Source: an uncultured Anaerobiospirillum sp. (GTDB lineage Bacteria > Pseudomonadota > Gammaproteobacteria > Enterobacterales > Succinivibrionaceae). Taken from it: DNA of 62,417 bases. Location: NCBI GenBank assembly GCA_944390115.1, contig CALXOW010000014.1:1-62417 (forward strand). The letters run 5' to 3'. The translations under genes were made by a program, and so were the position numbers. The notes under the pieces are model-generated. The model did not search any database, was not told where the DNA came from, and was given only the letters and a program-made list of their open reading frames with translations. Position 1 is the first letter of the stretch, and the number at the start of each line of letters is the position of its first letter. Below are positions 56,632 through 62,417 of the stretch, one piece after another.

Positions 56632-57031
56632 AGCAATTCGTCCGAGCAAATAGTTGGGGCAAACCAAACGGTTGGGGGTGGCTACCCTTTGGGGGTAATC
56701 AAGTGGTGGGTACTTTGACCCTAGAGGTTTGATTGCCAAGTGGTCGTCAAAAGGACTGGGGCATCTTGGCCTAATGTGGAGCACGGGTCAAATGTCGGCC
56801 GGTTTTTTGACCGTTGCGGGGCAAAATAAACGCTTGCGCTAAGTTTCGGTGCACGTTACGCACTATTTTGGCGGCGCGGGCTATGCTTACAAGATTTCTG
56901 GGGAGCCTGGGCAGTTGCAAAGAATTATGCAAAAGTATTGGAGCGCTGGGACTTTCATGTAAAAATGGGGCAGTGAGACTGGGTGGGTCTTACTGTTTTC
57001 GGTCAGTCACCAAGCAATGAGGGGGTACACG

Positions 57032-60000
57032 ATGGCTCGACAGTGGTTGGCTTCACTAAAAGTGCAGCTTCCGCGTAAGTTAGAAGAATTTGCCCATAAT
57101 GATGCCACAGGCGGCGTCATTATGATGTTTTGTACTGTCTTAGCGCTGGTATTGCAAAATGGCTCGTATTCGACGAGCTATCGTCACTGGCTGGAGATGA
57201 GCGCAGGCGTCATGTTTGGCGACTTCTCGCTCATTAAGCCGCTGCTGTTGTGGATCAACGACGGTCTGATCACTATCTTCTTCTTCTCGATTGGCCTGGA
57301 GCTGAAGATTGAGTTTATCAAGGGACACCTCTCTGATCGACGTAATATCATCTTGCCGAGCTTAGGTGCCTTTGCCGGTATCGTATTCCCGTCCCTCTTC
57401 TTTATCGCCTTTAACTACGATAATGCCTTTGCGATGCGTGGTTGGGCGATTCCGACCTCGACTGATACCGCCTTTAGCTTGGCCTTATTGCTGCTCTTAG
57501 GTTCCCGTGTGCCTGCCTCGCTTAAGATCTTCCTCTTATCGATGGCGATCTTCGATGATATCGGTGCGATCTTGGTTATTGCGCTGTTCTATACCTCGGA
57601 GCTGTCGGGTCCGGCCTTAATCTTGGCGGCCTTTGCCTTGATGTGCCTCTTAACCCTCAATTACTTTGGGGCCTCGCGCCACATGTTCTACGTCTTCTTT
57701 GGCGTCATTATGTGGTTTGCCATTTTAAAGAGCGGCGTGCACGCCACCTTAGCCGGTATCATCACCGCCTTCTGTATCCCAATGAAGAACGCTGATGATC
57801 AGCCGATGGTGGAACCGATTTACCATAGTCTAAAGATGTGGGTCGCGCTGGTGGTGCTGCCGATCTTTACCATCGCTAATGCTGGTGTCGATCTGTCCAT
57901 GATTGACCTCAATGGCTTATTCTCGCCAGTTAGCCTTGGTATCTTCACCGGTCTGTTCTTTGGCAAGCAGATTGGCATCTTCTTGGTCATTTGGCTGTGC
58001 ATCAAATTGCGCGTGGTCAAGATGCCGGTGGATGCGACTTACCCGCAGATCTATGGTGTGTGCATTCTGACCGGTATCGGCTTTAGTATGTCGATGTTCA
58101 TTGACACCTTGGCGTACCAAGGTAGCAATGTGTTCGAATATGCCGACTCCTTAGCGATCTTGCTGGCGTCACTGTGCTCGGGTGTTTTTGGTTATTGCTA
58201 CTTACGCTTCTTTGCCTGCCGTACTAAGGCCATTGAGTATCGTCCATGGTTACCAGCACCGCATGGCTATCGTGGTAGCATGGCTACGGCCAACCTCTAC
58301 ACCTTGGAGGCTCCAATTCAAGGTCCGGCCAGCGTTGCTCCTACTGCCGCTTTAGTTGCTGAAGCCGCCGCTCGTGCTGCGGCCGCACGTCAAGCTGCTG
58401 AGGCCGCTGAGGAAGCTGCCAATGCTGCACAAGTAGCCGCTGAGGTCGCACAAAAGGTGGCCGCCACCGAAGAAGTCGATGACAAGACGGTAGCTGAAGT
58501 GCAGCTTGCTGCCGCTCAGGCCGCCCAAGCTGCCGCTAGCGCCGCAGTTTCGACCTCGAAGCTCGATGATTCGGAGGAAACGGCTGATACCGCAGAAGCC
58601 GCCGCTGCCGCATTAGAGGCTGCTCAAGCTGTAGCTGATAGCGCCGCTGAGGCGGTAGAAGAGGCAGCTAAGGCCGAGGAAGAGGCCATAGCAGCTGAAG
58701 AGGCGGCCCAGGCCGAGGAAGAGGCTCAGGCTGAGGCAGAAGCTCAGGATGATAAGTCCGCAGCAACTTCCGAGGCAGCGATCAATGAAGCCATCGATGC
58801 GGCCCAAGAGACTATTGCCGCCGAAACTGATGATGCCGCTGAAGCCGGGGCAGAGTCGGTAGTGGTTGCCGTAGCTAAGGCTCAAGCGGCTGAAAGCCAG
58901 GCTGAGGCTGCACCAGCGGCTGAGGAAGGAGCCAAGGCTGCTGAAGATTCTGGCGCTGCTGAGACTAAGAGCGCTGCCGCACCGGCAGAGTCGTCTCAGG
59001 GCAAGGCTGAACAGAAGGACGAGTCCGATCAGAAGGTTCAGGCTGATAAGAAAGCTGAATCCGATAAGAAGGCTGAGTCCGATAAGAAGACTGAGTCCGA
59101 GGACAAGGGTCAGTCCGATAAGGCCGAGGACGAAGGCGGCGTCTTAAGCAGCGTCGTTGAGACCACGGTCAAGGTGGCCAAGGCGGTTACGACCTTAGTC
59201 AAGGGCGAGGATGAGGAAACCGAGCCTAAGTCTAAGGACGAAGGCGCCAAGAAGACCGCATCTGCCGAGCAAGCTGAGGCCGAAAAGTCCGAAGCTGACC
59301 AGAAGGCTGACGACAAGAAGGCGGATAAGACTGCTGACAAGAAGGCCGAGCAGGCTGCCGATAAGGCCGCTGATAAGAAGGCTGACGACAAGAAGGCAGA
59401 GTCGAAGGCTGAGGATGACCAAGAGGAAGAGGGCGGTGTCTTAAGCAGCGTCGTCGAAACTACGGTCAAGGTCGCTAAGGCGGTCACCTCCTTAGTCAAG
59501 TCTGATAGTGAGGACGAGGCTGAAGGCTCCGAGAAGGATAAGTCCGAAAATACGGAAAAGGTCAAGACGGATAAAGCCAAGACGGAGAAGGCCAAGTCCG
59601 CTAAGGATGAAGCCGCTGACGAGCCTGAGAGCGAGGAAGATACGGTGGCTGAGGATGCTGAGAAGTACCTCAAGCACATCGTGGCTAAGGCGCAAGCTCA
59701 AGTGCTGCAAACGCCAAAGCAGGTGAAGACCGATGAGGAACTGGCAGCAATTCGCGCCCGTGCCGAGGCCTTGGCTGCTTCGATGGCCAAGCCGCAGGCA
59801 ACCTTGGTTGAGCCTGAAGGGGAGCCAAAGGACACCGAGGAAAGCGCTGAGCCTGCTACCGGCTTAAAGGTCGCCGATGTCGCCCCAGAGGCCGTATCAG
59901 CGCCAACGACTGCGCCGACCGCAGCACCTGCAACCGAAACCAGTGGTTTAAAGGTCGCTGATGTCTTGGCCACTGAGCCAGCTCAGCCTTCTGAGACCAT

Positions 60001-60061
60001 GGACCAGGCCGAAGCTGAATCCAAGGCGCAAGCTGCAGCAAAGGATCCTGAGTCCAAGTAG
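57032..60061 (+). CDS. nhaA: Na+/H+ antiporter NhaA with a roughly 600-residue charged C-terminal tail
   Basis: Residues 1-400 are a standard NhaA exchanger that expels Na+ in return for H+. The ion-binding aspartates D175-D176 (MAIFDDIGAILVIAL) match E. coli D163-D164, STDTAFSLAL carries the conserved Asp of helix IV, and the helix X lysine is in FFGKQIGIF. Residues about 405-1009 are a cytoplasmic tail rich in Ala, Glu, Lys, Asp and Ser. It contains two copies of the 23-residue unit GGVLSSVVETTVKVAKAVT plus three residues to LVK (59135-59203 and 59432-59500), ESDKKA repeats and two GLKVADV motifs. E. coli NhaA has only 388 residues. GGGGG lies 7 bp before the ATG at 57032. Confidence 0.9.
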   Translation: MARQWLASLKVQLPRKLEEFAHNDATGGVIMMFCTVLALVLQNGSYSTSYRHWLEMSAGVMFGDFSLIKPLLLWINDGLITIFFFSIGLELKIEFIKGHLSDRRNIILPSLGAFAGIVFPSLFFIAFNYDNAFAMRGWAIPTSTDTAFSLALLLLLGSRVPASLKIFLLSMAIFDDIGAILVIALFYTSELSGPALILAAFALMCLLTLNYFGASRHMFYVFFGVIMWFAILKSGVHATLAGIITAFCIPMKNADDQPMVEPIYHSLKMWVALVVLPIFTIANAGVDLSMIDLNGLFSPVSLGIFTGLFFGKQIGIFLVIWLCIKLRVVKMPVDATYPQIYGVCILTGIGFSMSMFIDTLAYQGSNVFEYADSLAILLASLCSGVFGYCYLRFFACRTKAIEYRPWLPAPHGYRGSMATANLYTLEAPIQGPASVAPTAALVAEAAARAAAARQAAEAAEEAANAAQVAAEVAQKVAATEEVDDKTVAEVQLAAAQAAQAAASAAVSTSKLDDSEETADTAEAAAAALEAAQAVADSAAEAVEEAAKAEEEAIAAEEAAQAEEEAQAEAEAQDDKSAATSEAAINEAIDAAQETIAAETDDAAEAGAESVVVAVAKAQAAESQAEAAPAAEEGAKAAEDSGAAETKSAAAPAESSQGKAEQKDESDQKVQADKKAESDKKAESDKKTESEDKGQSDKAEDEGGVLSSVVETTVKVAKAVTTLVKGEDEETEPKSKDEGAKKTASAEQAEAEKSEADQKADDKKADKTADKKAEQAADKAADKKADDKKAESKAEDDQEEEGGVLSSVVETTVKVAKAVTSLVKSDSEDEAEGSEKDKSENTEKVKTDKAKTEKAKSAKDEAADEPESEEDTVAEDAEKYLKHIVAKAQAQVLQTPKQVKTDEELAAIRARAEALAASMAKPQATLVEPEGEPKDTEESAEPATGLKVADVAPEAVSAPTTAPTAAPATETSGLKVADVLATEPAQPSETMDQAEAESKAQAAAKDPESK

Positions 60062-61523: not shown

Positions 61524-62417
61524 CTAGCTTAAGCGTGGTAAACGATGCCCGGCACTGACTTGGGCGGCAATCTTCTTGCTCTCGCTGGCGGTCATGCGCT
61601 TTAAGGCGGTGAGGACACCACTCTCTGGTGCAGCTGGAGCCTTATAAGGCAGGGCAGCGATGGCCTGAGGAGTATCCTCGGTTAAAGCGTTCACAATGCC
61701 ATCCCAACGTGCGGCCACGTAAGCCTCAGTCTCAGGCTCTTGAACCTTAACTTCGTTATCGCTTTGGGCGATGGTTTGAGCTAAGTGCGCCATTAACAGG
61801 GACTGAGTGGAATCAAGCCAAGCAAAGCGCTTGAGATAGAGTGAGGTTAATTCCTCATTGCTCAGCGCAGGCTGCTCGGTTAAGGCAGCCAGGGCATACG
61901 AGCTTAAGCTCTCAGCCTGAACCTCAGGGGCTTGAGGGGCAACTTGTAAGTCAACTAAGCGCTGGGTTGGGCTCAGTGAGCATTGAGCTAACAGGTCAGC
62001 TAAGCGGGCGTGCGCTACGCTTGGAGTAGGCTTGCCATTAACCAAATCCTGAGCTGGGGTAAACCACGACTGAGCTAACAGGTCAGATAAGCGCTCATGC
62101 GACATCGAGCTTTCAGCTTGAGCCTCAACCTTGGCCTCAGGAGCTGGAGCAGCTTGAGCGGCCATTGGCTCAGGCTCACGCATCGCAACTAATTGATCCG
62201 TTGGGGTGAGCCAGGACTGAGCTAACATATCAGCTAAGCGCTCGTGCGACAGCGAGCTTTCAGCTTGAGCCTCTGGCGCAACGCGCGCAGCAACTGGAGC
62301 GGCAGCAACTGGAGCGGCAACAACTTCAGGGGCGGCCATCGGCTCAGGCTCACGCATCGCAACTAATTGATCCGTTGGGGTGAGCCAGGACTGAGCTAAC
62401 ATATCAGCTAAGCGCTC
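61524..62417 (-). CDS. Repeat-rich protein of unknown function (5' partial)
   Basis: The frame is open to the right edge, so the N-terminus is missing; 297 residues are visible. They hold two nearly identical 58-residue repeats and degenerate further copies. Each carries a helical motif LADMLAQSWLTPTDQLVAM or similar, joined by Ala/Pro/Glu-rich linkers. The last 120 residues are a different, mostly helical region ending RLPRLS. I recognise no family. It is probably cytoplasmic, as no hydrophobic helix is seen. The large conserved N-terminal part, if any, would decide its identity. Confidence 0.7.
   Translation of the reverse strand, partial: ERLADMLAQSWLTPTDQLVAMREPEPMAAPEVVAAPVAAAPVAARVAPEAQAESSLSHERLADMLAQSWLTPTDQLVAMREPEPMAAQAAPAPEAKVEAQAESSMSHERLSDLLAQSWFTPAQDLVNGKPTPSVAHARLADLLAQCSLSPTQRLVDLQVAPQAPEVQAESLSSYALAALTEQPALSNEELTSLYLKRFAWLDSTQSLLMAHLAQTIAQSDNEVKVQEPETEAYVAARWDGIVNALTEDTPQAIAALPYKAPAAPESGVLTALKRMTASESKKIAAQVSAGHRLPRLS
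62160..62417 (-). repeat. 174-bp near-identical direct repeat inside the repeat protein
   Basis: The sequence starting at 62160 recurs at 62334 with few differences over the 84 bases visible before the edge. The period is 174 bp, or 58 codons. A degenerate third copy lies at about 62040-62105. The array probably continues beyond the window. Confidence 0.85.

Follow-up and report, generated by a model that had tools for sequence, protein, structure and literature searches.

In Anaerobiospirillum the Na+/H+ antiporter NhaA is fused, in a single reading frame, to a C-terminal tail longer than the transporter itself, and the part of the tail that adjoins the membrane domain is strongly conserved. 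The gene was studied in a 62,417-nucleotide stretch of DNA (the window) from an uncultured member of the genus (GenBank assembly GCA_944390115.1, contig CALXOW010000014.1). Reasoning in part by analogy, we propose that the tail is a genus-specific cytoplasmic regulatory or scaffold arm, the far end of which would be able to rest on the membrane; we put the probability of this reading at roughly one half. The features of the gene are listed in Table 1.

Table 1. Features of the nhaA fusion gene (positions refer to the window, residues to the 1009-residue product)
Feature	Position	Strand	Residues and remarks
NhaA-tail fusion gene	57032..60061	+	1009 aa; single uninterrupted frame from ATG 57032 to stop 60061
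NhaA antiporter	57074..58219	+	15-396; ion-binding aspartates included
Juxtamembrane module	58232..58666	+	401-545; IEYRPWLPxPxGY and QGPxSVAPTA stretches, then Ala-rich helices
Module helix 1, predicted	58337..58465	+	436-478
Module helix 2, predicted	58481..58558	+	484-509
Helix 3, predicted	58583..58747	+	518-572; extends past the conserved module
Variable linker	58748..59134	+	low complexity; 18-nt repeats at about 59013-59120
Amphipathic unit, copy 1	59135..59203	+	702-724
Amphipathic unit, copy 2	59432..59500	+	801-823; the copy that has a positional match in the three closest orthologs
Distal helical element	59636..59785	+	869-918 (KYLKHIVAKAQAQV...); counterpart in ten of ten orthologs, partly picked by eye
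GLKVADV motif, copy 1	59861..59881	+	944-950
GLKVADV motif, copy 2	59945..59965	+	972-978

A complete NhaA continues into a 609-residue tail

NhaA is the textbook Na+/H+ antiporter of bacteria. In the protein encoded by the window, the Pfam family PF06965 matched residues 19-391 (E = 4.4e-128, 427.7 bits) and TIGR00773 matched residues 20-391 with 370.8 bits against a cut-off of 254; two NhaA subfamily models likewise scored above their cut-offs. Alignment to the solved E. coli NhaA extended over residues 16-394 (E = 4.1e-99) and placed T144, D145, D175, D176, H237 and K312 on E. coli positions 132, 133, 163, 164, 225 and 300, respectively, which we take to be ion-binding or associated residues. 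Asp163 and Lys300 of the E. coli protein are named in the excerpted text of a cryo-EM study (PMC13408996). With both family matches and D175/D176 aligned, the first 400 residues hold a complete NhaA with its ion-binding aspartates, as the sequence-only reading had stated. NhaA proteins without a large tail are usually about 390-480 aa long; since length is not a criterion of the family models, the 1009-residue protein remains an NhaA.

The start codon is preceded by AGGGGG at 57020-57025. A second in-frame ATG at 57017 is a possible start; position 57032 is the start used for aligning the three closest orthologs. The tail, residues 401-1009, contains 27% Ala, 16% Glu, 10% Lys and 8% Asp and has a net charge of -73, which agrees with the earlier description of one open frame carrying an Ala/Glu/Lys/Asp-rich tail longer than the antiporter. 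A net negative charge of 67-116 is found in the tails of all ten orthologs, whose sequences have diverged. This could mean that the tail is in effect a charged polymer, which would gather Na+ or buffer protons by the cytoplasmic funnel and in this way tune the antiporter. Retention of a strong negative charge in ten of ten tails despite divergence is in favor of this explanation, but the conserved Ala-rich module and the cationic helices (see below) would be left unexplained, and we consider it quite unlikely.

Long open reading frames of low complexity are prone to assembly errors in principle, but we found no evidence that nhaA had been joined to a separate gene by a frameshift, a chimeric assembly or a missed stop. 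The frameshift or assembly error that the sequence-only reading had considered at about 58240 was absent. The fusion is equally unbroken in ten Anaerobiospirillum genomes, which excludes such errors, and a separate tail gene was not found in these relatives, the tail following NhaA in all ten. The titles of three records, A. succiniciproducens DSM 6400, NML120448 and NML120449, do not call them MAGs or bins; one of the ten is titled just Succinivibrionaceae bacterium, and those other than the three named strains are MAGs or bins. Frameshift and chimera were therefore rejected, the chance of an artefact being negligible, and the NhaA-tail fusion is real.

The tail is apparently confined to one genus among the genomes searched

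The unbroken fusion was found in 10 of the 11 Anaerobiospirillum genomes examined, with tails of 578-963 residues. The eleventh genome (94% complete) had no PF06965 match; the fusion is thus present wherever this nhaA occurs among the genomes of the genus examined. A profile built of the final membrane-helix residues and the first 150 tail residues detected the same 10 of 11 genomes and none of the 46 remaining genomes of the family. Besides the ten fusions, this model of the module recovered in the family a single faint hit (E = 3.3e-5, over model positions 16-90) in a 1726-aa frame of one close relative (G003). According to the complete list of PF06965 matches, 21 of 57 family genomes carry the domain: the ten Anaerobiospirillum frames are 994-1365 aa long and the eleven frames of other genera 395-479 aa, with one fragment of 138. 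No tail was found on NhaA in the 11 other Succinivibrionaceae genomes (of 46) with a PF06965 match.

Two short peptide patterns, derived from the alignment behind this profile and searched against 84,980 species genomes, yielded 9 loci, each a complete NhaA-tail fusion. Because these are the same nine assemblies already contained in the family set, the number of supporting genomes is ten and not nineteen. In 24 genomes from the order's other families the complete list showed no NhaA frame longer than 474 aa. In a sample of the phylum 157 of 249 genomes matched PF06965, and among the matches listed the NhaA frames measured at most 546 aa, apart from a single frame of 763 aa; these matches reach to about E = 2e-135, and the tailed gene of the window (E = 3e-129) would rank below them. 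The 763-aa frame owes its greater length to sequence upstream of NhaA, the open frame being of high GC. Openly licensed papers among the matches listed for NhaA C-terminal extensions or tails, or for Anaerobiospirillum, described no such tail, and no such papers were found on fusions of NhaA to a thioredoxin domain or on low-complexity extensions in bacterial proteomes. The tail is apparently restricted to the genus.

An NhaA paralogue that lacks the tail and has about 65 additional residues inserted in the core was observed on contig 1 of the window's genome (24390-25733) and in G003 (contig C82); in two other close relatives (G009 and G010) partial or interrupted copies alone were matched.

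The neighborhood of the ten loci contained nothing seen to account for the tail. In 7 of 10 loci, the window included, prfA follows downstream on the same strand at a distance of no more than 0.7 kb; in one genome (G006) it is about 2 kb away and points the other way, and for two loci it falls outside the available DNA. At the contig end, the ORF 61524-62402 consists of degenerate SHERLADMLAQSWLTPTDQLV-type repeats and has no Pfam match. Its best clade matches (three genomes) are 49-69% identical, as against 97-99% for the neighboring prfA, which indicates that this ORF evolves fast.

The membrane-proximal part of the tail is under purifying selection

The strongest signal in the tail is the module of residues 401-545, and not the 23-residue unit discussed below. 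The module starts directly after the final membrane helix. In the alignment of the ten complete proteins this region has few gaps, IEYRPWLP and SVAPTA are invariant and VQLAAAQAA is near-invariant; mean column identity over the ten orthologs was 76%, calculated from an alignment that begins 10 and ends about 5 residues outside the module. Against the three closest orthologs (G003, G010 and G009, in this order) dN/dS was 0.008, 0.047 and 0.026 for the module and 0.023, 0.064 and 0.053 for the NhaA core, whereas the distal tail gave 0.28, a value that was not computable, and 0.27. The low ratios of the module are partly due to dS, which is higher there than in the core. In comparisons with six distant orthologs, where synonymous sites are near saturation, pN was 0.21-0.29 for the module, 0.13-0.26 for the core and 0.53-0.62 for the distal tail, the module changing at 1.1-1.9 times the pN of the core. 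The module is therefore strongly constrained, somewhat less so than the core over long times. As the part adjoining the transporter is so well conserved, the tail probably does a job.

The AlphaFold2 model of the full-length protein was poor (mean pLDDT 38.6, most of the NhaA core below 50), likely on account of the alignment of only ten rows. Since not even the core was folded confidently, the model was used for secondary structure only. Nine of the eleven ten-residue blocks between residues 451 and 560 had mean pLDDT values of 70-78, the highest of the model, and a second predicted model gave similar helices. Beyond NhaA, no Pfam family matched the tail at E values up to 1, and the best hit in a profile search of the PDB with the module had E = 0.088. 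The weak PDB hits, which range up to E = 0.22 and include two light-harvesting chains aligned over the YRPWL-like stretch, were treated as chance.

The distal tail is variable but retains recurrent helical elements

Beyond the module the tail continues as a long, acidic and fast-evolving linker. The sequence-only reading had drawn attention to a 23-residue unit occurring twice, exactly 99 codons apart, and the two copies indeed begin at residues 702 and 801 and share 22 of their 23 residues. This pair is peculiar to the window's genome: the three closest relatives have one full copy each, G010 having two shorter forms in addition. In the 19-residue core of the unit the copies differ by 8 bases in 8 codons and every change is synonymous, which shows that the encoded residues have been maintained since the duplication. 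Around copy 2, dN/dS against the three closest orthologs was 0.47, 0.11 and 0.12, calculated on no more than 34-35 codons, and protein-level constraint there must therefore be regarded as modest.

The earlier interpretation of the unit as an amphipathic helix stood in part. Its amphipathicity places the unit at the 97th percentile of tail windows, and its net charge is positive, but copy 1 was not predicted to be helical in the full-length AlphaFold2 model, and the helix predicted for copy 2 (803-822) had pLDDT values under 40. The unit does not stand out from an otherwise disordered tail either, other parts of the tail looking ordered as well. In the distal element AlphaFold2 placed helices at 869-892 and 901-918 with block means of 36-56; conservation of this element is strong within the window clade (dN/dS 0.05-0.13) and weak between distant orthologs.

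It had also been suggested that the unit touches the membrane. This is plausible, as no ortholog is without a predicted cationic amphipathic helix: it is the 23-residue unit in four genomes and lies at the extreme C-terminus in six. In the recurrent arrangement an acidic stretch is followed by the predicted helix, which often opens with Gly-Gly and a hydrophobic residue; the helix is internal in the window clade, and C-terminal examples elsewhere are EGGMLKKISGLIKKPKV, SGGALSKITKLFKKH and TSVLQKISNVFKKH. In nine of the ten orthologs the unit or the C-terminal helix was detected as a cationic window, its moment being at or above the 90th percentile, and in the tenth (L035, genome G004) the C-terminal helix was recognized by inspection. 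Among random 16-mers drawn to the same tail composition, 0.005% to 0.4% equaled the six C-termini in their hydrophobic and positive make-up. For the four C-termini of the window clade the share was 3% to 43%, which is no clear helix signal.

Low-complexity stretches are common in the genus

Open reading frames containing at least 100 low-complexity polar residues were counted mechanically in 400 kb samples, taking ORFs of at least 200 aa and excluding those cut by the ends of stretches. There were 9 among 196 in the window's genome, 14 among 166 in A. succiniciproducens and 2 among 246 in one sister genus, the counts taking in inserts and N-terminal stretches besides tails. When a shorter scanning window was applied to 1.26 Mb of the window's genome, the analyzed stretch included, 46 of 646 ORFs were scored as low-complexity.

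Several individual cases were noted. A RecO protein (RecO_N and RecO_C domains; L078:8999-11446) has a low-complexity extension of several hundred residues, and in L067:3207-6281 a DctP-type solute-binding protein (Pfam) runs on into more than 600 further residues that are repetitive and rich in Ala, Glu, Pro and Thr. In A. succiniciproducens (L115:3062-5656) a C-terminal part that appeared CheW-like by eye comes after many near-identical ESAADAAMIAAAEQSDKDKADAAA-type repeats.

Since low-complexity growth is a habit of the genus, the distal NhaA tail need not be specifically selected and may be a by-product of this habit; it is the module that sets the NhaA case apart from the other low-complexity stretches. 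Possibly, then, only residues 401-545 work, for example as a dimerization or regulatory domain, and the 400-plus residues that follow are neutral or near-neutral, tolerated growth. The sharp fall of constraint after about residue 545, the wide range of tail lengths and the extensions on RecO, the DctP-type protein and others all speak for this. Such growth would not, however, account for the amphipathic helix type and the distal element recurring in all ten orthologs, nor for copy 2 of the unit being kept in four genomes and the copies differing just synonymously over 19 residues; on these grounds we are inclined to doubt this explanation.

A motif shared with a second membrane protein

The tails also contain an L[KST]V-type motif, chosen after the sequences had been inspected, of which the broad form is present in 10 of 10 tails and the strict form in 8 of 10. 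In the low-complexity segments of 1.26 Mb the motif was observed 3 times against a mean of 0.13 in shuffled sequences, and none of 300 shuffles reached 3. Two of the three occurrences are the defining NhaA copies, and the plain rate elsewhere, 30 motifs in about 298,000 aa, predicts about 1.5 occurrences; the enrichment is therefore a lead only.

An unrelated multi-TM protein of the window's genome (contig 13, 17409-18638; L075) has a low-complexity tail with GLTVESV, and its counterparts in three clade relatives have GLTVESV, GLSVASV and GLSVADV. Orthologs in the other 7 genomes were without the motif, one ortholog being cut by a contig end. Of 10 complete orthologs of this protein (L075, L149-L159), 7 have a C-terminus that is both cationic and aromatic, for instance KKKKKGWLW and KKKRGFFGRI. 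The motif parallel between NhaA and this protein is a lead and not a result. It could point to a genus-wide tail code, in which disordered cytoplasmic arms on inner-membrane proteins would carry basic hydrophobic membrane clips and a GL[KST]V..V docking motif, and one partner would gather NhaA and the contig 13 protein (and its three clade orthologs) into an assembly at the membrane surface. We regard this as improbable.

Proposed role and comparison with known systems

In the reading that we prefer, a housekeeping NhaA has gained a genus-specific cytoplasmic arm in Anaerobiospirillum. By the known topology of the E. coli protein the tail should lie on the cytoplasmic side. The Ala-rich helical module would most likely pack on the cytoplasmic face of the antiporter or on its dimer twin, or hold a partner protein, and by analogy it might act as a regulatory or oligomerizing domain at this face. 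The acidic, mostly disordered linker would bear the distal helical element and the GL[KST]V..V-type motifs, which could dock partners. If the cationic amphipathic helix or helices fold and lie on the membrane, the far end of the arm would be re-tethered near the transporter. Through such contacts the tail may regulate, cluster or scaffold the antiporter, with a possible effect on transport. The genus itself is marked by unusually many low-complexity stretches on ordinary proteins.

The closest known system is E. coli NhaA (PDB 1zcd, 4au5, 7s24 and 9rh1), which shares the antiporter core and the ion-binding residues with the protein of the window; the solved NhaA chains measure 376-411 aa as compared to 1009 aa here. 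In the excerpted text of the cryo-EM study, an antibody fragment bound at the C-terminus of NhaA is located on the cytoplasmic side; the study calls the C-terminal tail of the E. coli protein dispensable and describes the N-terminus, in one state, as an amphipathic helix on the membrane (PMC13408996).

A scaffold of another kind is RNase E, whose E. coli representative has a membrane-targeting amphipathic helix. According to the part consulted of PMC11964227, RNase E of Pseudomonadota has a C-terminal scaffold domain on which partners assemble via short linear motifs. The window tail has candidate motifs and predicted amphipathic helices, but it is not assigned to that family; RNase E is an RNase and not a transporter, and no sequence relation is claimed.

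Na+/H+ exchangers with long intracellular tails are known from animals. As described in the excerpted text of PMC11953442, animal NHE tails are about 125-440 aa long, have an interfacial helix at the membrane for which an autoinhibitory role is proposed, and regulate exchange via this helix and partners. NHE1 and NHE9 are in this respect like the NhaA of the window, whose tail, however, is longer, bacterial and Ala-rich; the likeness is one of description, and no homology was seen between the tails. Plant SOS1, a Na+/H+ antiporter with intracellular domains, is under an autoinhibitory mechanism and is activated by phosphorylation (PMC10372031, in the part consulted); here, too, it is by description, as an antiporter with intracellular domains, that the proteins are alike. 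An NhaA lineage whose tail exceeds the transporter in length and opens with a strongly constrained segment offers a natural case for studying how a cytoplasmic domain may regulate or organize such an antiporter, alongside the tails of animal NHE and plant SOS1.
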